Positions 3,661 through 64,000 of a DNA stretch of 64,000 bases are shown in pieces. Numbering within the stretch: position 1 is the first letter of the stretch; every line of letters starts with the position of its first letter. The notes under the pieces are model-generated. The model was not told the origin of the DNA, did no database searches, and was given only the letters and a program-made list of their open reading frames with translations. The DNA is taken from positions 11,160,001 to 11,224,000 of the forward strand of contig NC_085124.1 of assembly GCF_030269925.1 (NCBI RefSeq), read 5' to 3'. This stretch comes from Bombyx mori. Taxonomy: Eukaryota; Arthropoda; Insecta; Lepidoptera; Bombycidae. Both the position numbers and the translations under genes were made by a program.

Positions 3661-3763
3661 TTTTGGGACACGTTAATTCAACAGTTTAGAGTTTCTATTT
3701 GGTAAAAAAATATTGGGCCGTAGAAACAATGTTTCAAACATTATCTGATGTTTTTTTTAAATA

Positions 3764-3832
3764 TTAATTAATCTAGTTTAATTTAATTATTATAATTTAA
3801 TTATAATAGTTTAATTTAATTAACTAGATTAT
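3764..3832. repeat. AT-only imperfect palindrome
   Basis: The segment starts with aatctagtt and ends with aactagatt, with TTTAATTTAATTA blocks between them that pair imperfectly. It could form a long hairpin with a few bulges. No target duplication or neighbouring element was identified, so it may be a foldback remnant or simply low-complexity sequence. Confidence 0.5.
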
Positions 3833-4335
3833 TTCAATAATAAACTTATTTGATCCATTAAACGACATTGTAAATAGCATTAACTGAAATATCTTTTATC
3901 CAATCTCTTCTAATCACTCTTTGAGAAAGTGATGTCATCGCAACATTCTTATATCTTAGTGAGGGGCAAAAGAAAAAAAAACGAATTTATGACTTAAAAA
4001 GTTAACCGATTTGAATAAAATGAAATGTTAAAAAAAGCTTTTAAATTTTCTAAACCTTTAGAGAAACTTCAATTTTATTTACATATTTGAAACAAATAAA
4101 TTGATGTTCGCTAATTTTCTTTGCTATGCAGTCATCAAAGACCACAGATCAATACATTATCACAGACTATAAAAGATGAGCATGGACTAGTTTGAAAATT
4201 TTCCTTTCAATTCGATAGATGGCAGTGGCAGTAGTTTGTGGATAGTAAATGGCCCGTGTGGCCCTTAAATTAGTAGGTACGTGGAAAGAAGATTGCTATC
4301 TTCCTCGTGCTTCTCCATTCTAAGTATGGAACTAA

Positions 4336-4911
4336 CCCGCACCAACTTGAAGCCCCTTCAGGTTATTCAATCCCGATTCTGCAGGATAGCCGTCGGAGCA
4401 CCATGGTTCCTGAGGAACGTGGATCTCCACGATGACCTGGAGCTTGACTCTGTCAGTAAGTATCTACAGTCGGCATCGCTGCGCCATTTTGAGAAGGCGG
4501 CACGACATGAGAACCCTCTCATCGTAGCCGCTGGAAATTACATACCCGACCCAGTAGACCGAATGGTAAACCGTCGACGTCGCCCAAAGCACGTCATTAC
4601 GGATCCTCCTGATCCATTAACGGTGCTCTTAGGCACCACAAGCACCGGTCACCGTCCTCGTCGAACCCGTCGCTTGCGACGAAGGGCTCGACGAGCGAAC
4701 TAACCCATAGACACAGCCCACTGAGTTTCTCGCCGGATCTTCTCAGTGGGTCGCGTTTCCGATCCGGTGGTAGATTCTGCGAAGCACTGCTCTTGCTAGG
4801 GTCAGTGTTAGCAACTCTCCGGTTGAGCCCCGCGAGCTCACCTACAAACGTTAGGGTGAAGCTGAAATAGCCTCTCAAGGCTATCAGCATAGGTAGGAAA
4901 AAAAAAAAATG
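4336..4911 (+). mobile_element. Jockey-clade LINE 3' end with ORF2 C-terminus and poly(A)
   Basis: The plus strand is open from about 4281 to the stop at 4701-4703 and encodes the end of a Jockey-type ORF2, with the recognisable blocks LKPLQVIQSRFCRIAVGAPW and LRNVDLHDDL. A 3'UTR of about 200 bp follows, containing the block 'gtttctcgccggatcttctc', and ends in an A-tract at 4900-4910. Endonuclease and polymerase domains are missing, so this is a 5'-truncated dead copy. Three further pieces of the same 3' end lie at 8567-8770, 20769-21131 and 28575-28735. It is probably one of the abundant Bombyx L1Bm/BMC1-type elements, but the exact name is uncertain. Confidence 0.85.
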
Positions 4912-5239
4912 GAACTAGATCTTTAAAAGAACTGGATAGACTAGAATATTTAAAGTAAGAGAAGATATTCAGAATTGGGTTCTAAAAGAAACTGAAATAT
5001 TCATGACGCCGAAACTGAAATATTCATGACATTCCTTTGGAAAATTACCGCATTGCTTTTAAAATCTTTACTAAATACCCCGCATTTTAAAATGATATGG
5101 TAAATCATTTTATTCGGTTTATATTTTTATAGTTTTTTCGGTACCGCCAGTTAAAATTGTGTTACAATATTCTTTTTTACGAATATGTAGTTAGGGAAAA
5201 TTTACTTAAACTAGAGAAATTGGCTTCAAGTTTTAAGTT

Positions 5240-5683
5240 TTTTTTTATTGCCTAGATGTGTGTACAAGCTCACAGCCCACTTGGTGTTAAGTGGTTACTG
5301 GAACCCATAGAAATCTACAACGTAAATGCGCCACACACCTTGAGATATAAGTTCTAAGGTCTCAGTATAATTACAACGGTTGCCCCACCCTTCAAACCGA
5401 AACGAATTACTGCTTCACGGCAGAAATAGGCGGGGCGATGGTACCTACCCGTGCGGACTCACAAGAGGTCCTACTTACCACCAGTAATTACGCAAATTAT
5501 AATTTTGCGGTTTTGATTTTTATTACACGATATTATTCCTTCACCGTGGAAGTCAATTGTGAACAATTGTTAAGTACGTATTTCATTAGAAAAATTAGTA
5601 CCCGCCTGCGGGATTCGAACACCGTTGCATCGCTATATATACGAATGCACCGGACGTCTTGTGCTTTAGGCCACGACGACTTC
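5240..5683 (-). mobile_element. Bm1-type SINE, near full length
   Basis: The minus strand starts with a tRNA-like head containing a pol III B-box-like block (GTGTTCGAATCCC, near 5608-5622). It continues through the SINE body and ends with CAATAAAAAAA, printed as the T-run at 5240-5247. This is the most complete uninterrupted copy in the window, and I used it to interpret the broken ones. The family name is from memory of Bombyx repeats; the tRNA-like head and shared tail are seen directly. Confidence 0.85.
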
Positions 5684-5824
5684 AGTAACAATTAGTAACA
5701 GTTCAGAGGACTTTATTGAGGATTTTACACTAAAATTTAATTGAAAAACCGGATTCGTAGTAACGGAAGTTGATAGAGCAGCATATCGCGTAGACTTTAC
5801 AGATTTAAAAACAATTCAAATATA

Positions 5825-6667
5825 AGTATAATTTACCAGTCCAACGGTTTACGTATCGAGGATGCCTCACCTTTCGGCCTAACGCAGATGCTCATTTTCG
5901 CCGACACCTGCACCGAGAAGCCAGGAGGAAACGGACGGCGCAATGCCATCATGCCGATGACCCCGACAATGAGGACACCGCGGAACACACGCTTGCTGTC
6001 AGCTTTGCCTCGGCGGATCAACGCACCGCGTTTATCGTGTTTATAGAAGAGGACTTGTCGTTGCCGACCGTCGTACTAACGATGCTTGGCAGCGATGCGT
6101 TCTGGAAAGCGATGCTCAACTTATGTGAGTCCACCATCACGTGGAAGGAAATGGCGAAATGAGAGACGAAGAACTCTTCCCTCTCCGCACCGACCTGTCG
6201 CCGTCAAGCCGGGGAGAAACGTAAGAGCTCTGGTTCGGGTTCTGTAGGCGGCGGCCTTCCCCCGGTGAAGATCACGGGGTGACCTGAGGAGGTCGACGTT
6301 GCGCGGCAGGCTACCAGCACTCTAACGCACCATAGCAACAGCAACGTGAAAAGAGCGCGACCTGGCGAGCTGGGACGGGGACGAGCTGCCGTATCGAGAT
6401 GGCAAACGTTCCAGAGCCTTCGTTTCGCCTCGAAGGCTCCGTTGGCCGAGCGTCCTTAGGGTGAGCCTCGCTTCTGGTTGCAGTGTGACCGCGGTAACTA
6501 CCTTAACCTGCCCCAGTGTTGGCCTCGCGGGGGATCGGACGCTTGGGCGAAAGTGCAGGAAAGTCGTTTAGTGGGTGGGATCACGTACCGCTCCCACTAT
6601 CGACGGATCGAGTTACGTGAGGCTGGACGCTCGCACTGGACGTAAGGCCACTATCCAAAAAAAAAAA
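5825..6667 (+). mobile_element. R1-clade LINE 3' end with poly(A)
   Basis: This block is much more GC-rich than its surroundings. In the plus frame running to the stop at 6160-6162 it encodes the typical C-terminus of R1-clade ORF2: a cysteine/histidine cluster followed by DTAEHTLAV, then EDLSLPTVVLTMLGSDAFWK. A GC-rich 3'UTR of about 490 bp follows and ends in an A-run at 6657-6667. The domains upstream are missing, so it is a truncated retrocopy. It is not inserted in rDNA, so it is either a non-ribosomal R1-clade family or a stray copy. Confidence 0.8.
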
Positions 6668-9457: not shown

Positions 9458-12400
9458 TCAATATGGCCTGGGATACGGCCAGTTTTTACTGGACGACGAA
9501 TGGTGATCCATGTAAGGGCTGTCAGTTAACAGCAATTTACTACCGCTGAGACCAGAACTAGAGCTCCCGCTTGACGAGAACATACTCTTACTGCCCGTAT
9601 AAAATGATAGTGACGTGTGTAGAGGCTCTCGGCCTGATCGCCGTCTCGCTCGCACCAATGATACAAAGGCCACCGCGATGGCACAAAGGAAAATAACTCC
9701 TAACACGCAAAACGCTAAAGCCATTTTCCCTGGAGACAGACAAATCGTTTTGTCGCCCGGCGAAAACCCGCGAATAAATTCTTCATCTTCTATCCTTCTC
9801 GATCCTGTAAATCAAACAATGATGAGTAATCAACAATTTTGAAGAGTAAAAATTAAAAAAAAAAAAATAGGTACGCCACTCACCCCGTATAGAAGCTTCA
9901 TCTTCTAATTCAATATTCGGTGCGTGAACCTCGATACTATTGTACACTTCCAGTCTGTCTATGACGATTCCTCTCGCGTCCTTATCGAGTCGCGCCTTCC
10001 TCAATAATCCATCTCTAGTCTGCTGAGGCTTCTGCAACGCCTTGCAGTCCACAGGAGGGCATTGCCCTTTACATAACTCGATGCCACAGGTGAGATGTAA
10101 TTTCGCTCTGTCCGGAAACTTGAAAGCAGCGAACGTCGTAACCGCATGTTGGTACGTCATTATGTTCTTTAACATAAAATCTGGATCGGTCTTCGATTGC
10201 TTAACGCTTAAGCTCTCGTCTATATTTCTCTGCGTACCGGCCGGTTCGAGTTCGGAGAAATCGATTTCGCTGCTCCTCTGCTTGTGGCTGTGGATGGTGG
10301 GCTTGTTGAAGATTGATTCGTCAATCGGACAGCCGGCTTCGTCGAGCAGTTTCTGTGAGGCTTCGCCTTGACCATCGTGAGCGAGGCAGTTTGTTACGCG
10401 AAGCCCGACTCCGACTGTAAGGTAAGATATACCGCAATGTGTGAAAATAATGTTTGAAGATTGCCATCAAAGTATCTCATAATAACATTTGTTTCCGAAC
10501 GTATTTGAAGCCTCCTGTCAATATGAAAAACAAAACAGTATATCTATAGAATATTCCATGTCATGTCATATGAACAAAGTACCTTGTGGAAATATTTAAG
10601 TTTGACTGTTTATTTATGTACTTAAGTCTAAATGTCAGAAATTTATCGAAAAAAACACTGAGATTCCTAATATTTTTTTGTGTTTTAAATAAATACAACA
10701 ATTTGAAAATTCGATGCAATAAATACCTAACTAAAAAGGGCTGTCGCATCCTTTGTACCGAAACGAATGATTTCATAACGACGGAATCAAGCAGATGCCC
10801 CACTACCAGAAATTTAAATTTTTAACACGAATGATGGTAGGCAGCGGCTTAGCTCTGCACCTGGCGTTGCTGAAGTCCATGGGCGACGGTAACCACTCAC
10901 CATCAGGTGGGCCGTATGCTCGTATGCCTACAAGGGCAATAAAAAAATTTAATTCTTTAAGTAATTTGTAATCTATTATGTACGTATTTAATTTTTTTTA
11001 AATGTATCTGCCTGCGGGATTCGAACACTAGCATTATGACATCACTCCTTTACGCCACGACGTCACACGAAATCTCAAAAATACCTATCTACCTACTTAA
11101 ATTATAGTTACGTGTAAATTTGGATTTCGTCTCTTACCAGGTAGCGTACATTGAATAAGCAATCTCATGGGCTGTCCCACTTCGACTGTGGCCGGTTCAG
11201 TGGCAGCAGCGGCCGGAGACAATTCCATCCAGGCCCGGGCCGCTTCCATCAGCATTTCGCGCTGCTCCATTTCGGCCGAACTCGCGAAACCTTGACGGTT
11301 TCGACCCATTCTAGAATGTTTTTAAAGTAAAACAAATTTAAAATTAAATTTAATAATTAAAACAACTTCAAAAACGCATTGATATTGCAACTTAGATCGA
11401 TTTGAATATAGATAATACACTTAATATTTATGAACATAGTTTTTATTCTCGAATTTCTATGAATTTCGTGAAATACTGAAAAACCACGGGCCAACGCCAA
11501 GTGGAGTTCATTTTCAGTTTTAGTTTCGTCTGATGTTTCGTCCTGCAAAAACTTCCGAACAATCCGGCACGTATTTAAAATTGTGGCTTATTGCATGGTA
11601 AAAAAATTATTTTTGGGTAAATCTAATAGTTTGATGGAGCGGTGAAGGTACTTTGGTATGACTCCAGTGCTGCAAAGCACCAGCACTAGATATTATTATT
11701 ATTATTTATAATTATTTATGAGCATTTATTATTTATGAGATTTGACATCCAAATTGTAACATATGTGTAAAAGCTACTACTACTATTTAGTAGTTTACTC
11801 TTTGCAAATAATGCTTTTTTTTAATGATTCATGTGTGGTTTGTATGAAGATATAATAGGTACATTATGAGCAAACATTTGAAATCGAAAATGTTGAGACT
11901 ATAGATGAACGATATAATGCCTATCATTACAGTTGCTTATTAGAAAATTGGGAGATATATATAAATACATACCTGGATTTTTTTATTTCTTGCCCGGCTA
12001 TTTCCCTTATTTTATTGTTGATTACACTTTCCAACGCCGGACTGTCGATTTGGACTGCTCGTCTTTGCAGTTTGCATCTGAAATATTAATTGAATAAAAA
12101 AAAGTCAGCTCACATTTTAATAAAAAAATTTCGCAATACATAAAAAATACGAGGGCAATTCCCACGCACTGGATGTAGAACCTGTAGAATTATTCTATCT
12201 CATTCTCTCGTAGATTAAATTCTATAGATATATATTTGTCTCCTTCTAGTGTCGGATTTCCCTTCACATCATAATGGAGTCAAAGAAGGCTTCGCTTTTA
12301 AAAAAAAAACCTCGAAAGACTGAATTTCCACATTAAAAGGCCCTAAGATAGCATTTTGTCCCGTTTTATATGGATATTGAAAGCACATAACAAGAAAATA

Positions 12401-15400
12401 AACCACGACTACCAAACAATATTAACAAAAATGCTGACTGCGAATCGAACTCGGACCCGGGGTATATTAGTTTATCACTCACCACTAGACTAACTATATA
12501 GGCGAATTATTTCGTTGACATATCTATACTAATATATGGTTTAGTGGTTTTTACGGATGTTCCGTTATAACTACTGAACCATGCATCCGATTGACATGAA
12601 ACTTGGTATCCATGTAGAAAATACATGTACTTAATGGATAGGCTAATATTTATATAAGTATTGGACTCCCTAATAATAATGACAATAAATAAATAATGTT
12701 AATTTTAAATGCCCAACGAAGCGGGCGAGTACGGCTGGGTAAGTTCATATGAATATATTTATTCAACTCACTTGACCAAGATCTCCTGGTCGGAAGACTG
12801 TTGCAAGTGTTTGTCCATTTGCACGACCAGTTCCACGTTATAATACAATTGTTCTTCGTCGTCTGGTTCAAATTCGGTGGTGTTCAATGTGGATGTTCGC
12901 ACACCGCACGCGTTCGATGGGAGATGTAGTGATATCTTCGTGTTTAAACTGCCTGGAATAATGTGAATCACATTTCAGACATTTAAAGGATGTATTCTAT
13001 TCAAGCGAATCATAGACATAATTAAGAAACAATTTTACTGTATAATCTTACAATTTTTATAAAACACTTAAGTATAAGTTTGCATTGAGATCAGAACCTT
13101 CAGATATAGGAAGTTTAGAAAATTTATTTCGGTTTGAAGGGTGGGGCAGCCGTTGTAACTATAGTTGAGACCTTAGAACTTATATATCGAGATGGGTGGC
13201 GCATTTACGTTGTGGATGTCTATGGGCTCCAGTAACCACTTAGCACCAGGTAGGCTGTGAGCTCGTCCACCTATCAAATCAAATCAAATCAAATCAAATC
13301 AAATCAAATCAAATCAAATCAAAAAAGTTTTATTCAACATAAATGAAAATACATACTTGTTGAACGTCAAAAGAATTACCGCCAATTCACAAGAATTAGC
13401 CTCCGTCCTGAGAAGAATTGGCAAGAAACTCAGCGGGCATGTTTTTTTTTTTTTAATATTAGATTTTTATTTTTATTTTAAATATATATTTTTTTTTAAA
13501 TATTCATATTACAATAAGTAATTATAACATAACAATTTTACAATATTGAAATTCCCGGAGCGAGCAACTCATTCCCACTTTGTGCAATCTTCTAGATAAT
13601 CATTGACTTTATAGTAAGCTTTATTGCACAAATGTTCTTTAATAGTTTTCTTAAACCTATGTATATGTAGGTTCTGAACATCTTGTGGGATTTTGTTGTA
13701 CAGGCGCACAGACAAACACCCGAATGAATTTCGTATCTTATGTAACCTACTCATCGGCACAACAAGCTTGTGTTTGTTCCTAGTATTTCTATTATGTATG
13801 TCCGACATCTTAGGAAACTCCTCAATATGTTTACGAACATACATCAAATTTTCAAATGGGATGGCATAGTGAGAACTTTAATTTCTTTAAATTTTTCCCT
13901 CAGGGATTCCCTTGAGTGCATGTTATAAATAGCACGTATAGCTCTTTTCTGCAGAATAAATATCATTTCGACATCGGCCGCATTGCCCCATAGCAAAATG
14001 CCATAGGACATGACACTGTGGAAGTAACTAAAGTAAACTAAACGAGCCGTGTCCGCATTTGTTAACATTCTAATTTTTTTTACTGCGTATGCTGCAGAGC
14101 TAAGCTTACTCGCCAATTTATGAATATGAGGTCCCCACTGCAGTTTGGAGTCCACTGTTATACCAAGAAATACGGTTGACTCAACAAGCTCCAATGATTC
14201 CTCAGAAACAATTACATTACTATCTACTTGTCTCACATTTAAAGATGATTTAATACATTTTAAAGTAAATTTAATACATTTCGTTTTCTTACTATTCAAT
14301 AATAGGTTATTGATACGGAACCAATGAACCACACACGAAATCGCATCATTCACTTCGTCATAGACTTGTGATTGTCGTTTAATTTTAAATAATAAAGATG
14401 TATCATCTGCGAATAATACGACCTCGTGTCGGGACTCAATAAAACTAGGCAAATCGTTTATATATATTAGAAATAAAAAAGGACCCAAAATGGAACCCTG
14501 AGGTACACCCATTTTCAACGTGGTGCCTGAAGATCTATTTCCTTTCACATCTACTGTTTGTATCCTTCCTGATAAATAGGAAGTAATAAGTTCCAATGCA
14601 CCATCCCTAATACCATAGTGATGTAGTTTCCTCACCAATGTTTCATGTTCAACACAGTCAAATGCTTTGGATAAGTCACAGAAAATTCCAAGACAATCAT
14701 GCGATTCCTCCCAAGATTGAAATATATTTTTGATTAGATAAGCACCTGCATCAGTTGTAGAGCGACCCCTTGTAAACCCGAATTGTTTATTATGAAGCAG
14801 GTTATTTGAATTAAAATGTTCTAAAAGTTGTGTCAAAATAATTTTTTCAAAGATTTTACTCAACGTAGGGAGTACTGAAATAGGTCTATAGTTAGAGGGG
14901 TCATCAGTACTACCAGATTTAAAAAGAGGAATCACTTTACTATGTTTCATTAAGTCAGGAAATACACCACACTTAATACAATCATTAAAAATACTAACAA
15001 GATGAGAAGCAATAATGTCTATTACAGACTTCAAAACCTTTACTGATATTCCCCACAAGTCAGCTGTATTTTTTACATTAAGGCTATTAAAACTTTTTAT
15101 TATATTGTTTGAATTAATTTTCTTAAATTAAAAAATTTCATTGCATTTCTTGACATGGTTATGCAATAATATTTCAGCTGCTGTGGGGGATGAATTTAGA
15201 GATGTGGTAGTTGAAACTGGAATGTCAGAGAAAAACTTTTCAAAAGCATTAGCCACATCTTCATGACTAGTTACCAATTTATCGTCTATTTTTAACGAGA
15301 ATTCTTGATGGCTATTTCTGACTTTTCCACTTTCTCTACCAATGATGTTCCAAGTCATCTTTATCTTGTCAGGGGCATTTTTGATTAAATCACTTAAATG

Positions 15401-34305: not shown

Positions 34306-34569
34306 TATAGTGAGGGGTAGATCTCAGGGGTATTTAAAACTATGGGTTAGTCACCAATATCGAATTTCGAATTTTAATCTTCCTTTATCACAAACAATTT
34401 TCAGTTTTAAACAATAATTACATTTAGACGCGGGCGCACGCTATTCACACTCAAAACGGAAGCGCCCGGAACATAGATTATACACTGTTACAAGATTGAC
34501 ATAGATACTAACTATGTATAGCGAGCGGGCATACGGCCGCGAGAGTGACGTACCGGTCGGTTTGCTACA
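34306..34569 (-). repeat. 3' LTR of the Gypsy element
   Basis: 264 bp, starting TGTAGCAAACCGACC and ending CACTATA on the minus strand. The last ~19 codons and the stop of pol lie inside it, so the LTR is partly coding. No length difference from the 5' copy. Confidence 0.95.
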
Positions 34570-37523
34570 TACTCCCCCTCTAGTCCTGGAGGACGCCCTC
34601 GCTCCTGGACTAGCATCTCATTACTACTGGGCTGAGGGACAGGCGCAAGACCAACCATACCACCAGCTGCGGGAGAAAGACGTGGAGCTTCAGCATGCCG
34701 TGTCGTCATATGCCCTGGAACTCGAGAATCTGTTTTAACATTATTTGGGGGACGACCACGTTTCTTTTTAGGCATCACCGGCCGCGGAAGAGCATCACTC
34801 TGATTCTCACGGTATAGAGTGAGATCGTTCACATGATATTTCCCTAAAACTTCATCAGGTTTGTCAACATGCGCGACGTGGTAAGTAGTAGGGCTGACCT
34901 TTTTAACGATGCGATACGGACCATCGCGTTTTGGAACAAACTTAGAAGTAAGGCTCTTAGCGCTCTTACTGAGGACGTGTGATTTGATGAGAACCATGTC
35001 ACCTTCGTTGAATGTTTCAATGGGCCGTCTCGAACGATCAGCATACCCTTTAGCTTTATCTTGAAGCGTCTCTACACGTTCGCGCACCGCTGAAAAGGAG
35101 TTAACAAATTTCCTGAGATAGGGAGTTATTTGGGGAACAAAGTTATCTTTGTCTAGAACAGCACGAAGGTCATGGGCGACTTCTGTGGGGGACCTCATCT
35201 CTCTGCCAAATGACAAGTAAGCAGGTGACATACCTGTGGTGCGACATTTAGCGTTATTAAGAGCGAATCGAATCACTGGTAACATGTTTGGCCAGGAAGT
35301 GTGGTCACATTCCACGAGTTGTGCTAATAAAGTCTTAAGATCTCTGTTTTTACGTTCGGCGGGGTTTGCTTCTGGGTGATAGAGAGGGATAAGGTTTTGC
35401 TTTATCCCCAGGATGGACATGCATTGACGCATGACTGCCGAAATAAATTGTACGCCATTATCAGAAACTAGTCGGCGTGGAAGACCGAACCTCATAAAAT
35501 ACTCCTCTATGAGGACATGTGCACACGCCTCAGCAGTAGCTTCCTTCAATGGGAAAAGTTCTGTCCACCTCGTAGCAGTATCTTCTATAAGCAAGATCCA
35601 ACGCTCCCCCTGTTTTCCAGGTGGCAACGGGCCGAAAAGATCAACTGCCAAGACCTCGTTGCGCTGGTTCATCACCGGCGTCTGCAATAGACCTGGAGGC
35701 TTGGTATTAGCAGCCTTATAGCGTTGACAATGGATACATGCCTTTACATAGTCGGTTATGATTCTTCTCATTCCTGTGAAGTAGAACAGACGTGAGACTT
35801 GTTGGTAAGTCCGGTCAATTCCTGCATGTCCAGCGGTAGGGGCATCGTGAAGCTCTTTGAGAACGTCGGTCACTTGATGGGCAGGAATGACTAATTGTGG
35901 GGCCTCGGCATCAGAATCCGGATTAAGTCGATATAAAACACCTTGTTCCATTAGAAATCCTCTTTCTGACCATCTTTTAGCAGCAAGTTCATCCACTCCT
36001 TCCAGTTCTGTGACGATCTTCTGTATTTCCGGATCAGTCAACTGGTCTTGACGTAACTGGGTAGGTGACTTGGTGGGCAGGTCGCAAATGACAGAACAGA
36101 TGCCGCAGTTATTTTGTGTTTCGTTGGAACAGATCGGTCTACTTAACGTGTCAGCGACAACGTTAGCTTTTCCTGGGGTGTACTCGAATCTGATGTCAAA
36201 TTCTTGGAGTTTAAGCGCCCAACGGACCAACCTACCAGCAGGAGACTTTAAAGAAAGCAACCAACGCAAGGGTTGGTGGTCACTGCCTATAATAATTGGT
36301 TGGCCGTCGAGGTATGGCCTGAAACGCTCCACGGCCCAGACTACAGCAAGCGCTTCCCGTTCTGTAGTAGAGTAGTTGCGCTCCGCTGCGGTGAGTAGGC
36401 GGCTAGCATACTCGATAGGCCTTTCGTCCTTGCCTTCCCCTTGAGCTAAAACTGCGCCAAGTGCATAGTTGCTCGCGTCGGTACGCAGTACTAAGGGTTG
36501 TTTAAAATTCGCTTGAACAAGTACGGGCGCCGTGGTCAGCAGACGCTTCAATTCTTTGAATGCCTGTGTTTGTTCAGGTCCCCAGCTCCATGTGTAATTC
36601 TTCTTGGTCAGTCGAGTAAGCGGTTCTGCTATCTTTGAAAAGTTTGGAATAAACTTCCTGAACCAAGAGCATGTTTGGAGAAAAGTTCTTAAATGTTTTA
36701 GGTTAGATGGTTCCAGCATATTAAGGACAGCACTGACCTTCTCAGGGTCAGGAGACACACCGTCTGGAGTGATGACGTGGCCCAGATAACGGACCCTTTC
36801 TTTGGCAAAAGTGCACTTCTCTCTGTTTACGTGAAGTTTAAATTCAGACAAACGACTAAAAACAGCTTCCAGATCTTGTAGGTGTTGCTGGAATCCTTCT
36901 GAAATAATTAACAAATCGTCTAGATAAGCAAGTACTGTAACATCCTTCAAAGCAGCACAGGAGCGTAGACGATCAATAAGCCTTTGGAAAGTCGCCGGCG
37001 CATTCTTCAAGCCGAACGGCATTCTTTTAAAACGGTAAGTGCCTAGGGGGCAGACAAAAGCTGTTTTGTCTCTGTCTGCTTCTCGGACCATAACTTGCCA
37101 ATATGAAGAACGAAGGTCTATTGTGGTCATGTAACAATTCTTCTTCGTACTCTGGAGAAGATCATCAATGCGTGGGAGTGGGTAAGTATCCGATTTGGTT
37201 ACTTCATTTAAGCGCCTGTAATCCATGCAGAATCTTACATTACCATTGGACTTCGGTATCATCAATGCAGGAGAGCACCAGGCGGATTCGCACTCTTCAA
37301 TGATGTCATCTGCCAGCATCTTCTCTATTTCATTCTTCATCGTCTCCTTCTTGGAAGGGTTAAGGCGATAGGGCGGCACAGCTATCGGGGGGTGATCTCC
37401 GGTGTCTATGCAATGTTCTATGAATGGTGTCGGACCTCCCCCTGCTGTAAAAATACTTTCATGCCGAATAAGGAACTCATAATGCTTGGCGCTCAGCTGA
37501 TTGCAAGTGCATGCCTTCATCAT
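34512..37523 (-). CDS. pol: Gypsy pol: reverse transcriptase, RNase H, integrase (1003 aa)
   Basis: The polyprotein copies and inserts the element. Domains in order are: reverse transcriptase (about 45-270, with TTIDLRSSYWQV and the catalytic YLDD at 200-203); RNase H (about 340-465, with Asp349, Glu390 and Asp415); an integrase zinc finger (His559, His566, Cys596, Cys599); the integrase core with Asp628, Asp688 and Glu723, the last two separated by 34 residues; and a C-terminal GPYRIVKK...SPTTYHV module (GPY/F). The frame is +1 relative to gag and overlaps its end by 47 bp (37477-37523). It may therefore be made by frameshifting or by reinitiation at its own Met; the sequence does not decide. 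The reading frame has no lesion. The C-terminal tail contains a basic KKKRGRPPNN stretch resembling an AT-hook. Confidence 0.95.
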   Translation of the reverse strand: MMKACTCNQLSAKHYEFLIRHESIFTAGGGPTPFIEHCIDTGDHPPIAVPPYRLNPSKKETMKNEIEKMLADDIIEECESAWCSPALMIPKSNGNVRFCMDYRRLNEVTKSDTYPLPRIDDLLQSTKKNCYMTTIDLRSSYWQVMVREADRDKTAFVCPLGTYRFKRMPFGLKNAPATFQRLIDRLRSCAALKDVTVLAYLDDLLIISEGFQQHLQDLEAVFSRLSEFKLHVNREKCTFAKERVRYLGHVITPDGVSPDPEKVSAVLNMLEPSNLKHLRTFLQTCSWFRKFIPNFSKIAEPLTRLTKKNYTWSWGPEQTQAFKELKRLLTTAPVLVQANFKQPLVLRTDASNYALGAVLAQGEGKDERPIEYASRLLTAAERNYSTTEREALAVVWAVERFRPYLDGQPIIIGSDHQPLRWLLSLKSPAGRLVRWALKLQEFDIRFEYTPGKANVVADTLSRPICSNETQNNCGICSVICDLPTKSPTQLRQDQLTDPEIQKIVTELEGVDELAAKRWSERGFLMEQGVLYRLNPDSDAEAPQLVIPAHQVTDVLKELHDAPTAGHAGIDRTYQQVSRLFYFTGMRRIITDYVKACIHCQRYKAANTKPPGLLQTPVMNQRNEVLAVDLFGPLPPGKQGERWILLIEDTATRWTELFPLKEATAEACAHVLIEEYFMRFGLPRRLVSDNGVQFISAVMRQCMSILGIKQNLIPLYHPEANPAERKNRDLKTLLAQLVECDHTSWPNMLPVIRFALNNAKCRTTGMSPAYLSFGREMRSPTEVAHDLRAVLDKDNFVPQITPYLRKFVNSFSAVRERVETLQDKAKGYADRSRRPIETFNEGDMVLIKSHVLSKSAKSLTSKFVPKRDGPYRIVKKVSPTTYHVAHVDKPDEVLGKYHVNDLTLYRENQSDALPRPVMPKKKRGRPPNNVKTDSRVPGHMTTRHAEAPRLSPAAGGMVGLAPVPQPSSNEMLVQERGRPPGLEGEYVANRPVRHSRGRMPARYT

Positions 37524-39678
37524 CCCGAAGCATGTTAGTAGAAGCTATGCACACACCACGAGACATAGGTTCAAAAAGTAATTTATAATGCACCTTAGCA
37601 TCAGTACTAAAATACCATTCATGACGATGAAAATCAATAATAACTTTGGCAGCATTAATAAAATCAATACCCAATAGAGTTTCATTATCATTAGAATCAG
37701 GGAAGATTATAAATGGAATATTAATCACTATGTGTTCTAACCTCACTGGTAATATGGTTGTCAATACATCCATATTCCGAACATGCCCATCAGCAAGTTT
37801 GACTCGCCTAGTGGAGGGAGTAAGAGGGTGACCCTTATGCAGAAGGAGAGCATACAGCGTGTGACCAGCAATACAATGCTTAGCTGCTGTATCTATAAGT
37901 GCAGTACCATGTTTACCGAGAACTTGAATTTTGAAAATAGGCCGTAAATGTAAATACCTATTATCACTCTCACGGTCGTACACGGATGCTACAACACTTC
38001 CCTCACATGTACAATAATTAAAATTCAAACAATTATCAATTTCCACACATTCGTTAATTTTTCCAAAATTACACTTACTGCCTTTTGTGTCACAGTCATG
38101 GTTAGTTGAAAATTTTAAATTATTACAATTTGGTTCAATTATTTGATTATAAGGTAAAATTGAGTTCTTACATTTAGGTCTAGTTCCCTGGTTATAACAA
38201 ATATTTAAATTTTTACACTTTGTCCGAACATCCTGATTATATAAAACATGAGAATCACAAAAGGTTGGCATCTCATTATTACTAGTGCAATTACAGTTAA
38301 TATTCTTTGACACAGAATCATTACAGGCATGAAAATAAGATTTTCTGGAAGTAGGGCCTCTGTTAATGGTAGCATAATTAATATTTGCATCCCGGTTACA
38401 AAAATTTTGACATTCAAAATTACTCAGAAAATTATTTTTGTCATGCTGCTTAACATCATACATTGCATTCTGAACAGGTAAATTAGAACTAATTGTGTTA
38501 TTAACATTACACTGAACACTATAAAACGCATTATTGTCATTTTGCACACCCTCGGAAAAGTTAGATTGACTTTGCTCACCTCGGTTGTTTAACTTACGGC
38601 ACTGTTTCCGTGCATGTCCAAACCGTTTGCAGTAGGAGCACACTGGACGCTGTTTCTTCGTGGTCACGAATTGCTCTGCAGAACCTGGCACAGCAGCGGC
38701 AGGCGTGGCAGCGGCAGGCTGGGCGACAGCGACAGGCACAGCGGTGGCGGGCACGACGGCCGCGGCGGAGTTTGGAAAGCGCGCGCGCGGCGCCGGGGCC
38801 CTCGCACGAGCGGCGCACGGTTCAGGCCGACTCGCAGCCTGGGCCGGCAGGGCACGGATCGAACGCACACCACTAGTGGACGACACTGGTCTCGATTGAG
38901 TCTCCTCTATCGAATCTTCTATATTCCGAGCATGGTTTAATAATGAATTGAAAGATGTGATTTCTTCACGGCGCAATCTTGTGCGTATTCTATTATGAAG
39001 CAACCCGTATATCATATCAAGTTGTACTTTTTCAGTAATATCATCCCGCGGTAGCTTTGCCATAAGCGCACGAATACGAGCAACAAACTTGTCTGTGTTT
39101 TCGTTATCCTGCGGGGAAGCAAATATTTCCAAATATATTCTATGTGGTGGAAGGCGGGTGCCATATGCATATATTAAATTTTCTTTGGCTTCGTTCCAAG
39201 TGGAGATGTGATGCTTTAATCCTAGCCACCACGTAGCTGCGTCAGCAGACAAAAGCATGGCTAGGCCTCGTATGATGTTAGCGTCAGATACTTGAACGCA
39301 TTCTGTATAACTTTCAATTGCATCTATAAAGGCCTCAACAGATTCACCAGGTGCACCGCTGAAAGAAGCTCTGCAACGCGCCAAGGTACCATCTACGTTC
39401 ACTGGGGGCATCGGCGGAGGTGCCGGAGTCGACGATCTTTGTTCCATCACGTACGACATAATGTTCTTAAATGTTTCGGCCTGCGAACGTTGCAGCGAGG
39501 CCATCAACGCTGAAACATCATCCAGGTTGAACGTAGAATTGTTGCTACGTGATTCGGCGTGGGGGCGATCATGGGGGCTATCATGCTCCTCGTGATTTTC
39601 GTTGGCATTTGCATCTGCAGCAGGAATAACGTCGTCTTCGCGACGTTGCTGGCGATCTTGATTTCTAGTTAAAGGCAT
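37477..39678 (-). CDS. gag: Gypsy gag fused to aspartic protease (733 aa)
   Basis: Residues 100-260 form a Ty3-type capsid domain (FSGAPGESVEAFIDAIESY...WWLGLKHHISTW). An Ala/Pro/Arg-rich linker (265-335) and one CCHC zinc knuckle, CSYCKRFGHARKQC at 347-360, follow. After an unusual Asn/Cys-rich stretch (about 370-560) comes a retropepsin-like domain with LIDTAA at 594-599 (catalytic Asp596) and the distal LLGID at 668-672. Protease is thus encoded in the gag frame, not in pol. The active site is DTA rather than the commoner D[ST]G, which is tolerated in many Ty3/Gypsy proteases. The start is the first Met of the open frame, about 110 bp from the 5' LTR. The frame is intact. Confidence 0.93.
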   Translation of the reverse strand: MPLTRNQDRQQRREDDVIPAADANANENHEEHDSPHDRPHAESRSNNSTFNLDDVSALMASLQRSQAETFKNIMSYVMEQRSSTPAPPPMPPVNVDGTLARCRASFSGAPGESVEAFIDAIESYTECVQVSDANIIRGLAMLLSADAATWWLGLKHHISTWNEAKENLIYAYGTRLPPHRIYLEIFASPQDNENTDKFVARIRALMAKLPRDDITEKVQLDMIYGLLHNRIRTRLRREEITSFNSLLNHARNIEDSIEETQSRPVSSTSGVRSIRALPAQAASRPEPCAARARAPAPRARFPNSAAAVVPATAVPVAVAQPAAATPAAAVPGSAEQFVTTKKQRPVCSYCKRFGHARKQCRKLNNRGEQSQSNFSEGVQNDNNAFYSVQCNVNNTISSNLPVQNAMYDVKQHDKNNFLSNFECQNFCNRDANINYATINRGPTSRKSYFHACNDSVSKNINCNCTSNNEMPTFCDSHVLYNQDVRTKCKNLNICYNQGTRPKCKNSILPYNQIIEPNCNNLKFSTNHDCDTKGSKCNFGKINECVEIDNCLNFNYCTCEGSVVASVYDRESDNRYLHLRPIFKIQVLGKHGTALIDTAAKHCIAGHTLYALLLHKGHPLTPSTRRVKLADGHVRNMDVLTTILPVRLEHIVINIPFIIFPDSNDNETLLGIDFINAAKVIIDFHRHEWYFSTDAKVHYKLLFEPMSRGVCIASTNMLRDDEGMHLQSAERQAL

Positions 39679-39792
39679 TCTTTACAATTAAGCACCAACA
39701 GCATACAATAGTTAGCAAATTTTTCACAAAAGCGTGCGCGCCATTTTGTTAGTCCAAGCAAGAAAAAAATTAGGAAACGTTGGGCAGCCAGA

Positions 39793-57665: not shown

Positions 57666-58284
57666 TTCTTTTTAATAAAAGCAGATAAGCAATGTTGCCA
57701 TTTGAAGAAGACACAAACGAAATCAGTACTTTCCTTCAAAATTATAGACAAAATCTGTAAAACCATTTTAAACAAAATTCTATTTGATTACCTATAAAAT
57801 TAAATTAGTCGAAAAAACCCTACATTTTCCTATTTCCATGAATAACGTGCTTGAATTAATCATATACCAATAATAAAGGGTAAGAGTAATCTTCGTGCTG
57901 TTTTATTATTATTTAATAGTGTTTATTGTTTAATAGTGTTTACTGTTTCTATTGAACTTTCTAGTCATTAACTAAAATCTCTAACCTCGACTCATTCGTG
58001 TACAATTTCTCAAATGCGTTTTTGAATGAGATTAGTACATATTTAAATTAATACTGGGCAGTACTGAAAACAACTATCATTTCAAAAAGAATCTAGCAAA
58101 AGCAGTACAGTCCTTAATACAAATTAATAAGCGCAATCAAGATTGAATGAAGAAAGAAAAAAAAATTGTGTTGTTTTCTTGTATTAACAATGATCACCTG
58201 TTCATTTTATTGCTTAAAGTCCCATGTTGTTAAAATTTTGTACAATATCTAACTTAAAACGTTGAGGAACTGGTGGGCCATGAC

Positions 58285-58690
58285 GGAATCGTGAAAAGCC
58301 ATATTTATTTTTATTTGTTTATTTTTTATTTTATTTATTGGGTACCAACATGTTATACATCAGCACAGAACATTACAGGTATCATATACATTGATTACAC
58401 ACTAAATGCTAACACAATTACAGGTACCGACTGCATGCATTCAAAAAAAAGCTGTTCATTATATAAAAAAAACAAAAAAAACTATATATAACATTACATG
58501 AAGACCTTACATTATTACACATTTACTACCAAATACGCTATTACTTAATTGAAAAAACTCATTGAGCAAGTTTGTAGACTTCTCGTCTAAAACTGTCAAC
58601 AGGGCCAGATTGTTTTGCCGCAATAAAAGTTGACCCAGTCTGCAAGGAATGCTCTATTGGGATTAAACCAAACGACTTCAGGTTATAAAG
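58285..58690 (-). mobile_element. LINE 3' end with last ~35 codons
   Basis: On the minus strand a frame ending at the TGA 58561-58559 encodes TGSTFIAAKQSGPVDSFRRE followed by VYKLAQ, the style of a CR1/Daphne-like ORF2 C-terminus. An AT-rich 3'UTR follows. The sequence differs from the LINE at 13272-15905, so it is a second family. Only the tail is present. Confidence 0.55.
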
Positions 58691-58859
58691 ACTAACCGGA
58701 GGGTTAATAACAATAAAGACGTTAACTGTAAGTTAATATTAATTACCCTTGAAGTTGTGAATAGTGTTGTAGGCGGCCTCTGTGTGTCTTCACACTCAGT
58801 GAAATCAGTAAATCGTAACACGATTTGAATTTACCTCTTGAAGACCTTGTTTTCTTTTC

Positions 58860-59350
58860 TTTTTCGGGGAAGTATTGAATTTTTATCCTGACAAGAATTT
58901 ATCCAAACTTTGAATATAGTAGAAGTCTTTCGGCAAAAGGTTTGGAGAGTATGCTAAATGACGCAAAAATTTCAACCCTAGCTCTTGTAGCTTGGAGACC
59001 GTCTGTTATGCTGGCCGGAGATTCGTGAGCTTCCCCGTCATTGTGTCCAGCCCTTACACAGTACACATCCGTAGTAATACAGGTGACATTTGGGAAGGAG
59101 CTGTGGTGAATTTTTAATTGAATATTTTGGCACTAGACCACCAAACAGTGACTATGACATTTTAAGAGTAAATTTTCGATTTGGGGATTGCGTAGGCTTT
59201 AGGTGCTGAAGCCAGGTCTAATCAACACGACGACCGCTTACGATAAAAAAAAGATTAATAAAAAAGAATCCGTTCTTCATCCCAAGTAACAATACGGCTT
59301 GAAATTCCTTGGTTTCTTTGTCTGTTAAGCAACGCAAGGTATACACGAAC
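58860..59350 (-). pseudogene. Decayed mariner transposase, DD34D-like
   Basis: Minus-strand fragments appear in the right order: GISSRIVTWDEERILF (first catalytic Asp), a VTVWWSSA block, TMTGKLTNLRPA, then LQELGLKFLRHLAYSPNLLP and KDFYYIQSLDKFL, the last covering the third catalytic Asp. Stops and frameshifts are frequent and the second Asp segment (usually LLHDNARPH) is missing. It is distinct from the mariner at 40727-41203 and much older. Confidence 0.72.
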
Positions 59351-60021
59351 GCGTTCGTCGCGTTGCGCTGGGGATCGTTCAGTCTGTGCGGTACCCCTTT
59401 TTTTCTGAATCTGCGGTCGATCCTACGACCTCCTACTCAGAACCCGGGCGGAGCTAGCGAGGGAGCTAGCAACTTATCAATTTTATGAATTATTTGTGCG
59501 ATGCGGTAATTAATTATTGGTGCGATGGTAGAACGGTAGACGGTTCTAATTTTTTCTTAAATTACATACATAATATTATTTTTTCTCATCACACCATCAC
59601 CTTCCAGACGTCATCACATTTCCTGTACACATACAGCAAGTTTTGTTAAAAGCTATTATTATTATATTACCCGCTTACAGAAGCCGAATTTAGTCTGTTA
59701 AGGAGTTAGAGCTAAAACAAATATCTTATAGGAGTTTCGGCGATGCTTTATAACTTTCTTTATGAAACTTTTGACAGTAGGCAATTTTAGGCAATGCCTA
59801 AGTTTCAAAGATAAGTCGACAGGAATTGAATTACGTGGAATATTCGCCATTAGTAAAGGAAGTGGGTACTGAATAGTAATATGAAAAAAGATGGATAGTA
59901 AATTCAATAGCTTATTTAATTCGCCTTTAAAAAAAATGTACATATTTGTTTTTTTTGTCATAAAATTAGTGAAACGGATTGATATTTGGAATGTTTTAAG
60001 ATCAATAGTGTAGGTATTTTT
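59351..60021. other. Downstream flank of the 852-aa gene, no gene
   Basis: A GC-richer patch at 59385-59480 contains gggagctagc repeats. An 87-codon minus frame (59698-59961) lacks domain features. It lies downstream of the 852-codon gene on the same strand and might be a decayed continuation or simply noncoding. Confidence 0.4.
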
Positions 60022-60027
60022 TTTATT
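60022..60027 (-). promoter_or_regulatory. AATAAA signal of the 852-aa gene
   Basis: Printed tttatt, 25 bp after the TAG stop of the minus-strand gene. Its position is right for a eukaryotic polyadenylation signal, although A-rich sequence makes chance occurrence possible. Confidence 0.45.
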
Positions 60028-60051
60028 TTATGAAAATTGATAACAACTTTA

Positions 60052-62610
60052 CTATACTTGGGTAATAGTGTGACGTCTTTGATTTTTCTCCCTTTGATTT
60101 TCATCTATTAACTTGCGTAATTCATTCAAAGCGTATGCAAGGTCATTATACAATTCTAAATTGAGATCTTCTTGTATATTTAGAAAATCGATATACATCT
60201 CTTTGTTATGTTTTTGATTTTTATTAATCCACTTCTTCGTCACTTCTACTAAAGCCTCCAGTTGTTTTCCTGAGTTTGCATTGTTTTTTTTTAATATTAT
60301 GCTCGTTGCGATTTTCCAATATAAAGGAAAATCTTTGCACATAAATCCGTACAAATGATGTTTGAAATTTGGTTCCATTAATTTTCTTAGGACTTTCTCC
60401 CTTCGTTCCTGCAGCGTCAAATCTTTCGGGTATAAAACATTGAATGTTTGAAAATTCGTGTAGCTCTTGTTCAATAATCTTCCCATGTAAGGCACTACAA
60501 AGTCCGGATAATCATTCAGAAATACGGGTTGCTGTAAATTGTTTATCTCTAGATAATCTAAAAAGTTTTCATCGTTGAATGCATCTTGGATATTTTTAAA
60601 AACGTCATCATTAAACAGCATTTCAAGTATGACAGACGTCAATCTCGTAATGCATATAGTTTGTATGTGTATTATTTTTGTTTCACGATCATAAAGTGAC
60701 AAGTTTACTTTACCGTGCTTTAAGACTACGCCATTAGATAACGTGCTATTATTTTTATCTTTATACAAAATAATAACATCTTTAATATTCATGTTGTTTA
60801 TTGTTTTGAAATCAACAAGTGCTTGCACATTTTCGATCAATATCTGTCCTATTTGATTGTACCAATAAACGGTGTCGATAATCTGCAATTTTTGTTCAAT
60901 ATACAAAAATAACAGCTTTAGATGTCCACCCATTATACCGTAATTATTTCTGAATTCTTTTTCATATTTAATTTTTAGGTTATTATGCCAGTTACTTTTG
61001 AACTCTTCTGAGTTTTCATTATGATTTGAAATCAATATGGCATATTGTTCTTGGAGATATTTTATGAAACTTATCAAATTTTCGCGATCATCAGCAGTCA
61101 GATCAATGTGTCGGCCTTTAACGCGTACTGCCTTTTGTTGATTCCTTATTCGATCCTGAACTGCCGATTCATTATCGGTAAAGAATAATAAATTAAGCAA
61201 CTCTGTAACTTTATCAGCAACGTTATAACTGATATCTCCAATGTCACTTCCGTTTCCGATCTTGAATAATTGACAGGAACTACTCGTTAATGCTTCTTTT
61301 ACTGTGTCAACATCCGTTTTGACCTGTATTATATGATCAAATGTGTTTCCAGATTTACTTAGTAAATCACCTACTATTTTACTTAAACAAAAAGCGTAGA
61401 GATTTTTTCTGTTTTGGCGCATGTAGTGTCTGAAAGCAAACGCCAATTCTGATTCATTGTTGACGTACTGGTAAAAGACGTGAATTTGATCATTTCTCTC
61501 GGTCCCTAAAATTTTTAATATATTATTCTTCTGTAGCTTCATATAGGGCACTACGTTTATGATGAATTCAAATATTTGTTCTCTAGCGTTATTTGATTTT
61601 AATCTCTTTTTATCGTAAGCTTCCGACATCGCGGTCCTCACGAAAGACGTGACTCTTTTCTCACATTCATCTTTGTCTATCGCTGTTCCTATATCGAACT
61701 GCTTCTTAAATAGCATACTAGGTGTTTTTAAATTATCTGGTCCCTCGGTGAACTCGTCGTGTAGTTTCTGTTTGATGTGCGTTAAGTATGTTTGTAGTAA
61801 AACAAAGATGTTGGCACTCTTACGATTGCTATGTTCGAGAAGACCATTTAAGTCTACAGGCTCTATCCAATTGAATGTTTTTGTATTGGCATTTAGTTTT
61901 CTATGAACCAAATAGTTTCTGATGGAAACGACGCGATCCGTATCAGTTTTGTTGATAATCCGATCTAGATTAAGCTTCACGCCGTTCTCGTTACGAAGTT
62001 TCATGTCTTGTAAGGCCACTGTTTCGAGAAAATATACCAAAATATTAGCGTTCCTACCATTAATATAAGTGGCTTCGCCTAATGGCTTCATATATGTCAA
62101 TAGCGTATTGAGCTTCTGCAAGACTATTTGAACTGAATCGTTAATTTCTTTGTAAAGACCTTCGGCAACGGGCTGTTTGCTATCCAGCCTTTTGTTAATT
62201 AATCTGGCATTAACAAGCGCGTACGCCGCATTGCCGAGCTGTAGATTAGCTATTTGTCCATCTGGGACGTGATCTGTGACTATCTGTTTCAAACTTTCAT
62301 CCATTTTCTGATTCCTAGTGTCTGTGTAATACGTTATAGCGTTTTCATAGTCTATAATCAGTGTGACCCAAAAGTTTTGCATGTTACAAATGATTGTCAA
62401 TCTTTTGGTGCTTTGGTCGGTAGAGTCCAAAATCGGTTTTATTTTGTCTATGCCGTCTACAAGTCTGAATACGTGGTCCCGGTCTTGTTGTAAGCCGAAT
62501 TCATCCTGAGCCAAGCACATTAGCTCTTGTTGTCGATCGCTTGTTTGTAAACTGTTATTAAAAGAATTTATCATTGCATCGACTATACTCTGATCATTGG
62601 GGTCGACCAT
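60052..62610 (-). CDS. Intronless 852-aa protein with degenerate Ulp1-like segment and HEPN-like motif
   Basis: This is the longest host-type open frame in the window. The start context AAAATGG is favourable and is used because stops precede it. Residues 79-136 resemble the core of a C48 (Ulp1-like) cysteine protease: NFWVTLIID, an ITYYTD strand, a Gln-containing LQL, and YALVNARLI, where active proteases read CG.FAL.NA. The catalytic His and Cys are missing (the Cys position is Asn127). Residues 231-236 read RNYLVH, the R-N-x3-H signature of HEPN-type ribonucleases, in a helical region. The remaining 600 residues are Asn/Lys/Leu-rich and largely helical, with no transmembrane segment or signal peptide and no domain I recognise. 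Neighbours are repeats only. The lack of introns and this motif pair suggest an origin from an endosymbiont or virus, but I cannot prove it. Function is unknown. Confidence 0.8.
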   Translation of the reverse strand: MVDPNDQSIVDAMINSFNNSLQTSDRQQELMCLAQDEFGLQQDRDHVFRLVDGIDKIKPILDSTDQSTKRLTIICNMQNFWVTLIIDYENAITYYTDTRNQKMDESLKQIVTDHVPDGQIANLQLGNAAYALVNARLINKRLDSKQPVAEGLYKEINDSVQIVLQKLNTLLTYMKPLGEATYINGRNANILVYFLETVALQDMKLRNENGVKLNLDRIINKTDTDRVVSIRNYLVHRKLNANTKTFNWIEPVDLNGLLEHSNRKSANIFVLLQTYLTHIKQKLHDEFTEGPDNLKTPSMLFKKQFDIGTAIDKDECEKRVTSFVRTAMSEAYDKKRLKSNNAREQIFEFIINVVPYMKLQKNNILKILGTERNDQIHVFYQYVNNESELAFAFRHYMRQNRKNLYAFCLSKIVGDLLSKSGNTFDHIIQVKTDVDTVKEALTSSSCQLFKIGNGSDIGDISYNVADKVTELLNLLFFTDNESAVQDRIRNQQKAVRVKGRHIDLTADDRENLISFIKYLQEQYAILISNHNENSEEFKSNWHNNLKIKYEKEFRNNYGIMGGHLKLLFLYIEQKLQIIDTVYWYNQIGQILIENVQALVDFKTINNMNIKDVIILYKDKNNSTLSNGVVLKHGKVNLSLYDRETKIIHIQTICITRLTSVILEMLFNDDVFKNIQDAFNDENFLDYLEINNLQQPVFLNDYPDFVVPYMGRLLNKSYTNFQTFNVLYPKDLTLQERREKVLRKLMEPNFKHHLYGFMCKDFPLYWKIATSIILKKNNANSGKQLEALVEVTKKWINKNQKHNKEMYIDFLNIQEDLNLELYNDLAYALNELRKLIDENQREKNQRRHTITQV

Positions 62611-62660
62611 TTTATTGGTTCAGATGTTTGTTATATTGATTTTGCTTTCTTCTGAATGTT

Positions 62661-62669
62661 TTATATATA
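62661..62669 (-). promoter_or_regulatory. TATA-like box upstream of the 852-aa gene
   Basis: TATATATAA on the minus strand, about 50 bp before the start codon. A TCAG element occurs about 7 bp downstream of it, nearer than the usual spacing. The sequence is suggestive, not decisive, because the region is AT-rich. Confidence 0.4.
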
Positions 62670-62679
62670 TCTAAATACG

Positions 62680-63180
62680 CCAAGTACTGGATCTGGAATA
62701 TAGAAAAAAATAACACATAAATATTTTAACTACTTTAACGTCAACCTTCCTAACCTGCGATAGATCATAGATGAATTAAAAAAACGGAATATTGGTTTAG
62801 TGATCTTAGCTCTTTCTAAAATAACAGTAGTTATGTTAACCATATTTATTATCATATTTTGAGTACAGATAAATAATAAAATAGTTAATCTTTTATTATG
62901 GTGTATTAAAAAAATTCTAGGTACCTAAGCAAACAATGACAGTACAAAAGGATGAATAATTTTTTCAATGGTATTCCATATTTATAATTCAATGTTTAAT
63001 TCTCAAATTTTGCGTTTATATTTAAAATTAACGATAAGTATTACTATATTGGCGCTGGTTGCTGTGTAGTAATTAGTGTATATTATGTCGCTTTCTGACT
63101 CAATCTGACGTCTAGTAGATCACATCACAACTTACGTGGAAACCTTAAGTATACACCCTAAAATATACCTAGGTATGATG
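62680..63180. other. No gene recognised
   Basis: AT-rich upstream flank of the 852-aa gene. No repeat or reading frame was recognised. Confidence 0.4.
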
Positions 63181-63183
63181 CTA

Positions 63184-63665
63184 TGTCAATATCAACAAAT
63201 TCAAATTCAAATTCAAGTTCAAAATCATTTATTTCAACTTGGATGTCATCAAAAACACACTTGTTGAATGTCAAAAAGTAAAAGAAAATGTTAACTCTAC
63301 CACCGGTTCCAAAAAAAGCCACAGTCCTGAGAAGAACCGGCGAAACAAACTCAGCGGGCTTTTTTTTTTTGTATTTTCTCAACTATTTTCTTTTTTTTTT
63401 AAACAAGAAAACATATTTACAGTATACAAAAAAACAAGTCAAAAAAATACAATTCAAATAAATAATAATAATAATGAAAAATGAAAAGGCCAGGAGCGAA
63501 CGCCTCATTCCCACGTAGTGCCATCTAGTAAAAAATCCTTAACTTTATAATATGCCTTGTTGCACAAACGTTCCTTGACAGTTTTCTTAAATCTATGAAC
63601 AGGTAGTAGTTGAACGTTTTGTGGGATCTTGTTGAAAAGCTGTACACCCAGCCCCCAACACAAAC
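63184..63665 (-). mobile_element. CR1-like LINE 3' end, second subfamily
   Basis: The minus strand encodes a C-terminus (FNKIPQNVQLLPVHRFKKTV, then CNKAYYKV) close to that of the LINE at 13272-15905 (NKIPQDVQNLHIHRFKKTI). A 3'UTR with the shared 'cctgagaagaaccggc' block and a (TTTGAA)n-type tail at 63184-63225 follow. Only the last ~50 codons are kept. Divergence in the 3'UTR marks a different subfamily. Confidence 0.82.
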
Positions 63666-63726
63666 CAATCCTCTTATACGAATGTCATAAAAGCATATAC
63701 CTAATTGTAAATAGACATGTTTTAAC

Positions 63727-64000
63727 AAAAACCGACTTCAAATAGAAAAAATAATAATTCCAAAACAAATTAATATACACTAAAAACAATAATCATCGAA
63801 ATCGGTTGGCGTGATATTGAGTTATTCATCTATTTGTCGCGCACGTACTTAATGCAAATTTAAGATTTATATGGTTTTCTCATGGATACCATTATCAGAA
63901 CTTGACTAAATGAAATGGGACCACACGGCGAGCGTCAGCTTTCTAAGAAAAAAAGAATGATCAAAATCGATTCACCAAGTTAAAAGTTATGAGGTAACAA
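63727..64000 (+). repeat. Dispersed repeat starting 'aaccgacttcaaa', cut by the window edge
   Basis: It begins with the accgacttcaaa motif. Its last part ('gatcaaaatcgattcaccaa', gttatgaggtaac) corresponds to 55375-55425 and continues beyond the window. Copies of the end motif occur at 2029, 49651 and, reversed, 55455. It is common in moth DNA; class not determined. Confidence 0.55.

Follow-up and report, generated by a model that had tools for sequence, protein, structure and literature searches.

What is a long, intact and intronless gene doing on a silkworm chromosome when the part of it that has recognizable relatives resembles a domain of bacterial toxins? The gene lies in a window of 64,000 nucleotides of the Bombyx mori genome (NC_085124.1, positions 11,160,001 to 11,224,000 of the forward strand; C18:11160001-11224000 in the genome-wide search), the window being the whole stretch of DNA that was analysed. 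A preliminary description of this DNA proposed that the encoded protein is a domesticated endosymbiont or viral effector. The best explanation as a whole, with a probability of about 0.55, is that a CifB-type effector of Rickettsiales, Wolbachia-like as far as can be judged, was captured and reshaped. Horizontal transfer is likely, and we infer a function for the gene. The features on which the argument turns are the following.

60052..62610, minus strand: intact open frame from ATG to stop, 852 amino acids (aa), 99.6 kDa
62116..62535, minus strand: aa 26-165, predicted CE-clan (Ulp1/C48-like) pseudo-protease domain of CifB type, from profile, hhalign and blastp alignments
62371..62373, minus strand: Phe80, in the catalytic-His column, which is His in 9 of the 9 bacterial rows of alignment A2
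62320..62322, minus strand: Asp97, the invariant catalytic Asp column, retained
62227..62232, minus strand: junction of aa 127-128, with a gap in place of the Gln...Cys loop seen in the relatives

The intact frame of the preliminary description is real. It runs on the minus strand from ATG to stop with no internal stop in 852 codons, while in 60 sequences simulated by a first-order Markov model with the dinucleotide frequencies of the 64-kb window, the longest open stretches average 140 codons and never exceed 181. The ATG stands in a favourable start context, AAAATGG, the gene reads as a single frame without introns, and no strong hydrophobic segment was found in the protein.

The first relative comes from 343 genomes of the order to which a Rickettsiales metagenome-assembled genome belongs, one of two whose contigs were matched by a Wolbachia 16S primer. 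Matches at E ≤ 1 occur in 8 of the 343, and in the best of these aa 68-173 align with the CE domain in the C-terminal part of a frame of 1030 aa (E 3.5e-4 per genome). The motif of this frame reads HW...D...QQ.DG.NCG, and Pfam assigns it RickCE_cat (E 3.2e-4) and Peptidase_C48 (E 0.0059), both under the curated cut-offs; at E ≤ 0.001 Pfam C48 has 0 matches in its genome (G069). The frame is taken for a CidB-like cytoplasmic incompatibility (CI) toxin that lacks part of its N-terminus. Its genus, to which both primer-matched genomes also belong, is presumably Wolbachia. Pfam C48 gives 28 matches in that genus, spread over 18 of the 41 genomes searched. These and the first match make 29 domains, which were reduced to a 20-domain profile by dropping two without the full motif and removing identical ones; a 19-domain profile excludes the first match as well. 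The 20-domain profile scores the silkworm protein at 27.7 bits over aa 65-163, a value reached by 0 of 5000 local shuffles (highest 14.1), with 1.4 bits for the reversed protein. The corresponding values for the 19-domain profile are 26.0 bits, 0 of 5000, 15.5 and 1.0, and the same profile ranks the gene first (E 7e-7) among 1699 frames of at least 40 codons taken from 164 kb around the gene and four SENP-like loci, the best SENP-like frame scoring 10.6 bits. Alignment by hhalign with nine bacterial domains gives E 2.1e-6 and a probability of 89 over aa 30-163, and the blastp alignment spans aa 26-162, so that the likeness begins ahead of the active site, near aa 26. In the reciprocal direction, a search of the 164 kb with 164 bacterial frames from 16 loci hits no place but the gene at E ≤ 1e-3, with five rows and a best E of 2.3e-4 among the matches listed. 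Together these results are strong evidence that aa 26-165 and the CE-clan domain found in CidB/CndB-like proteins are homologous. The C48-like segment that had been proposed is confirmed with Rickettsiales sequences and profiles only; the whole protein matches 0 families at E ≤ 10 in Pfam, and the same is true of NCBIfam and PADLOC.

The active site is a different matter. A2, an alignment of nine bacterial rows, has invariant columns for His, Trp, Asp, Gln and Cys. The catalytic set is incomplete in the silkworm protein, where His is replaced by Phe80 (from alignments A1 and A2), Gln and Cys fall in a gap and Asp97 is kept; Trp81 is kept alongside Asp97, as are the further invariant columns L21, D25, T83, L84, Y95, A131, A135 and I138. 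Since the catalytic His, Gln and Cys are lost, the gene is not classed as a protease, and "degenerate", the word the preliminary description had used of the C48 segment, is apt. Loss of the active site with retention of the surrounding columns would mark the protein as a pseudo-enzyme with a retained fold.

Within the CE clan, the likeness is to CifB-type (CidB/CndB-like) domains and not to the host's SENPs, as far as alignment scores tell. The names CidB and CndB follow PMC7750005 and PMC12687446, and the labels on the compared frames are the author's assignment. When 22 domains were used as single queries against the protein, ten CndB-like domains and the CidB-like first match scored 18.8-22.4 bits (eight of the ten CndB-like frames are giant and two shorter, several being near-identical), a 606-aa frame scored 9.7 bits and nine other bacterial domains 5.8 to -1.6 bits. 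Pfam C48 finds four exon matches in the host genome, on contigs C4 and C22, which by the author's reading appear SENP-like; the 852-aa gene is not among them. Only three of five SENP-like host frames gave any alignment, -1.4 bits at best, a score that does not make the gene a SENP paralogue. In a maximum-likelihood tree the query is nearest the CndB-like domains by path length. As a separate observation, a bacterial frame of 606 aa (L073, G043:C1:1143768-1145132) has two tandem CE-clan protease matches, of which the second alone has the full motif, and three giant frames of 3285, 2987 and 4466 aa at 500818, 676989 and 1143454 of G062:C1, a member of the presumed Wolbachia genus, have near-identical CE domains.

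The tree also bears on the direction of transfer. CE domains are common in eukaryotes. The domain could have moved in the opposite direction, or the insect gene and the CifB domain could both stem from an arthropod family. A phage family could have been the common source as well, a proposal to which the "eukaryotic association module" of phage WO lends some colour (PMC5062602). A midpoint-rooted tree does place the query outside the sampled bacterial domains, a position that its long branch alone would give. Such a reversed or third-party origin is nevertheless improbable, since the bacterial family is broad (profile A1, in which the query is one of 10 rows, matches 123 of the 343 Rickettsiales genomes) while one member was found in the insect genome, and the host SENPs are no closer.

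The setting of the gene is that of a host chromosome, as its flanks indicate.

62659..62669, minus strand: TATA-like TATATATAAAA, about 50 bp upstream of the ATG, candidate signal
60022..60027, minus strand: AATAAA, 24 nt 3' of the stop, candidate signal
63196..63656, no strand assigned: host interspersed repeat, starting 586 bp before the ATG

The TATA-like element and the AATAAA of the preliminary description are both present, but are weak evidence because both are short AT-rich strings within AT-rich DNA. The repeat has 39 other copies, at 96-99% identity, among the best 40 of 2482 candidate places, and since this multi-copy host repeat starts 586 bp before the ATG, the gene is embedded in the host chromosome. 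A search of the whole genome (461.7 Mb, 30 contigs) with the 852-aa protein gives one match at E ≤ 0.001, the gene itself; the sole further match up to E 10 (E 1.1, aa 574-624) is at chance level. The homologue set of ordinary host genes, or the transposon copies, that would have spoken against the initial proposal do not appear in this genome, the counts of paralogues and of transposon copies both being 0. That the frame belongs to a transposon or an endogenous virus is the least probable of the explanations considered: retroelement frames are present in the window, yet the frame occurs in one copy and so has no second copy with shared ends, and no convincing bounding repeats were found in 58000-64000, where the longest pairs among the matches listed are 34 nt at 71-74%. 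It has no Pfam family, two weak PHROG matches and no confirmed relative on a viral contig. The viral half of the original proposal finds no support either, at least within the reach of methods suited to fairly close relatives: tblastn against plasmids and phages gave no match, and exact peptide words gave 6 pattern matches on viral contigs, of which 0 were confirmed. The same word search on bacterial contigs gave 28 pattern matches and 0 confirmed. The endosymbiont half holds for the N-terminal sixth of the protein, whose closest relatives found are CifB-type CE domains.

The protein database, searched with the whole protein, aa 60-160 and aa 178-300, returned only P0001, moth coverage being uncontrolled and the whole-protein search scoring only the 7995 candidates that share most words. 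P0001 (source tag lgn), taken to be assembled from public reads, is a second copy of equal length that differs at 11 of 852 residues (99% identical), each difference being explained by a single-base change; since 11 changes are too few, they are unusable as a test of selection.

Composition adds to the case for an old arrival. The GC content of codon position 2 is 0.246, the lowest of ten local frames (the other nine, 0.30-0.42), whereas that of position 3, 0.371, is close to the mean of the region, 0.368. Few frames were compared, and they mix host exons with transposon frames. An AT-rich donor followed by drift of silent sites towards the host would give this combination. Old capture of an endosymbiont CifB-type effector by an ancestor of the moth, with later inactivation, is on balance probable from these sequence features. 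The captured gene might instead be functionless, its decay not yet visible, a view with which the missing active site and the few differences of P0001 agree. This is unlikely, though hardly negligible: the branch length of 2.81 and the regional position-3 GC suggest long residence in the host, and since about 3.8% of random single-base changes in this frame (transitions to transversions 4:1) are nonsense, long neutral residence should have left stops.

The remainder of the protein is a long tail, which contains the motifs behind an earlier suggestion of a HEPN ribonuclease.

60055..62085, minus strand: aa 176-852, no relatives detected, helical by low-confidence prediction
61903..61920, minus strand: aa 231-236, RNYLVH (RNx3H), in a predicted helical segment of a low-confidence model
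61480..61497, minus strand: aa 372-377, RNDQIH, the second RNx3H, from the motif scan

Neither the bacterial frames nor any library searched gave a match to aa 176-852. The RNx3H motifs exist as had been described; in 20,000 shuffles at least one occurs in 8.4% and two in 0.29%, and the broader pattern Rx4-6H is unremarkable (5 seen against 2.5 expected, P 0.10). No HEPN profile answers to them, 0 Pfam families being found for aa 140-310 at E ≤ 10, and the region is helical in a model of low confidence (predicted local distance difference test, pLDDT, 40.5), so that HEPN is a lead only, taken from the motif. A likeness between aa 581-636 and the CndB-like giants (1 of 16 profile windows, 4 of 1000 shuffles, colinear-looking) was rejected, since a wider profile built from nine long frames did not reproduce it: 193 of 1000 shuffles scored as high as the tail.

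Other matches along the protein were treated as noise. PHROGs gives two weak ones (E 0.0029, "replication protein", aa 598-656; E 0.017), and Pfam on five pieces of the protein gives Syntrophin_4th, MC5 and Vmethyltransf_C at E 0.013-0.076, none of which reaches the cut-off. Among PDB sequences there is none at E ≤ 1 for the whole protein and none at E ≤ 10 for aa 1-160, and 11 influenza haemagglutinin sequences that match aa 140-310 at E 0.28-1.7 are taken as chance. Single-sequence AlphaFold2 models, made without relatives, are unusable (mean pLDDT 33.6; 40.5 for the second), and Foldseek with the second finds 0 PDB structures at E ≤ 0.001. The lack of a Pfam match, five sixths of the protein without relatives and the failure of the structure models are what a fast-evolving native orphan of insects would present, its CE likeness being due to chance or convergence. 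The profile, reciprocal, shuffle and motif-column evidence makes that very improbable.

Several points weigh against the capture of a CifB-type effector. The first match alone is not significant, about 0.12 such matches being expected over 343 genomes, and the genus of the profiles was picked on its account. Used as a single query, a second CidB-like frame gives just 11.1 bits, and in the maximum-likelihood tree the very long query branch (2.81) has an unsupported placement. The low GC at position 2 could also have arisen in other ways. Only about 140 of the 852 residues are accounted for, and the nuclease-fold half of CifB is absent, since only about 25 residues precede the CE domain in the frame and nothing nuclease-like was recognised. 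Nor is there a trace of the partner: a CifA-like protein, presumably CifA from its place just upstream of a CidB-like frame, has 0 matches genome-wide at E ≤ 1 in a search without a positive control, and the 164 bacterial frames, one of them CifA-like by position, have no neighbouring match in the 164 kb searched.

Some Rickettsiales matches were set aside. A 260-aa frame of G067 that matches aa 142-223 (E 5.1e-4) is judged chance, since its family matches are only weak and it lies beside a frame of the same kind; at 3482-6106 of locus L039 (G067:C1:887000-897000), adjoining frames of 574 and 260 aa have a common N-terminal stretch. The matches in G163 (aa 19-112) and G164 (aa 21-112) are to what is, by motifs and in the author's reading, a folate-type enzyme, and that in G037 looks similar. 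The remaining matched genomes are G043, G111 and G225, the G225 frame having internal stops. The window itself also holds, on the minus strand, two overlapping Ty3-like retroelement frames at 34512-39681 (gag with aspartyl protease; reverse transcriptase, RNase H and integrase), a 427-aa reverse-transcriptase frame at 13844-15127 (RVT_1, E 2.9e-35) and, at 9783-10466, a similarity to zona-pellucida/cuticlin C-termini, probably exons of a host gene with a zona-pellucida domain. Outside the window, at L016:308-4813 (C18:11234308-11238813), plus-strand frames of 765 and 735 aa abut in the same reading frame with one stop between them, and neither has a Pfam match at E ≤ 0.001.

If a CifB-type effector was indeed captured, the gene would have passed from a Rickettsiales symbiont to an ancestor of the moth and would then have come to be expressed in the host. 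Its dead CE domain may still bind a partner without cutting it, whether ubiquitin chains, the toxin's host substrate or the antidote, and so might act as a decoy, competitor or regulator, possibly protecting against reproductive parasites; the tail of about 680 residues would confer a role specific to the host. Dead domains can act by binding, since CidB that has lost its catalytic activity still causes a CI-like phenotype at high level (PMC12687446). The decoy mechanism specifically is conceivable but doubtful, and a shade more doubtful is its narrower form, in which the protein would be a host nuclear decoy against CI toxins, a resistance gene derived from a toxin and not a captured antidote. 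If true, the gene would record past reproductive parasitism in a moth that is probably the best studied of all, and would offer a ready test of whether insects convert symbiont toxins into defences.

Insects that carry CI-like genes are already on record (PMC7750005, section 21; PMC12445526), and toxin genes also occur, less often, on scaffolds of some arthropod assemblies (PMC7750005, section 21). A survey of horizontal gene transfer in the silkworm describes 10 intronless transferred genes, none from Wolbachia or Buchnera (PMC3116507), and another paper speaks of evidence for Wolbachia transfers in Lepidoptera as practically lacking as of 2017 (PMC5704228). In partial listings of the open-licence literature, no title or abstract opening was found that describes the present gene.

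Among known systems, HEPN RNases share with the moth protein an RNx3H motif, in the latter within a predicted helical segment, without profile or structural support in the latter, and host SUMO proteases (SENP/Ulp1) share the CE clan, the genome's own C48 frames remaining at the low scores given above. The closest are the CifB-type CI toxins, CidB (type I) and the CndB-like giants, which share the CE domain (aa 26-165, a span that begins ahead of the active site) and the motif columns WVTL, YY.D and AL.NAR.IN. The moth gene differs from them in lacking the active-site His, Gln and Cys and the N-terminal nuclease-fold region, in having another tail of 680 aa and no adjacent cifA that could be found, and in its place on an insect chromosome. 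The cinA-like and cidA-like genes of the cat flea (PMC7750005) are comparable as symbiont CI-type sequence in an insect nuclear genome. However, the flea genes are described there as antidotes, whereas the moth gene is an inactivated toxin-type protease domain in a single large frame.
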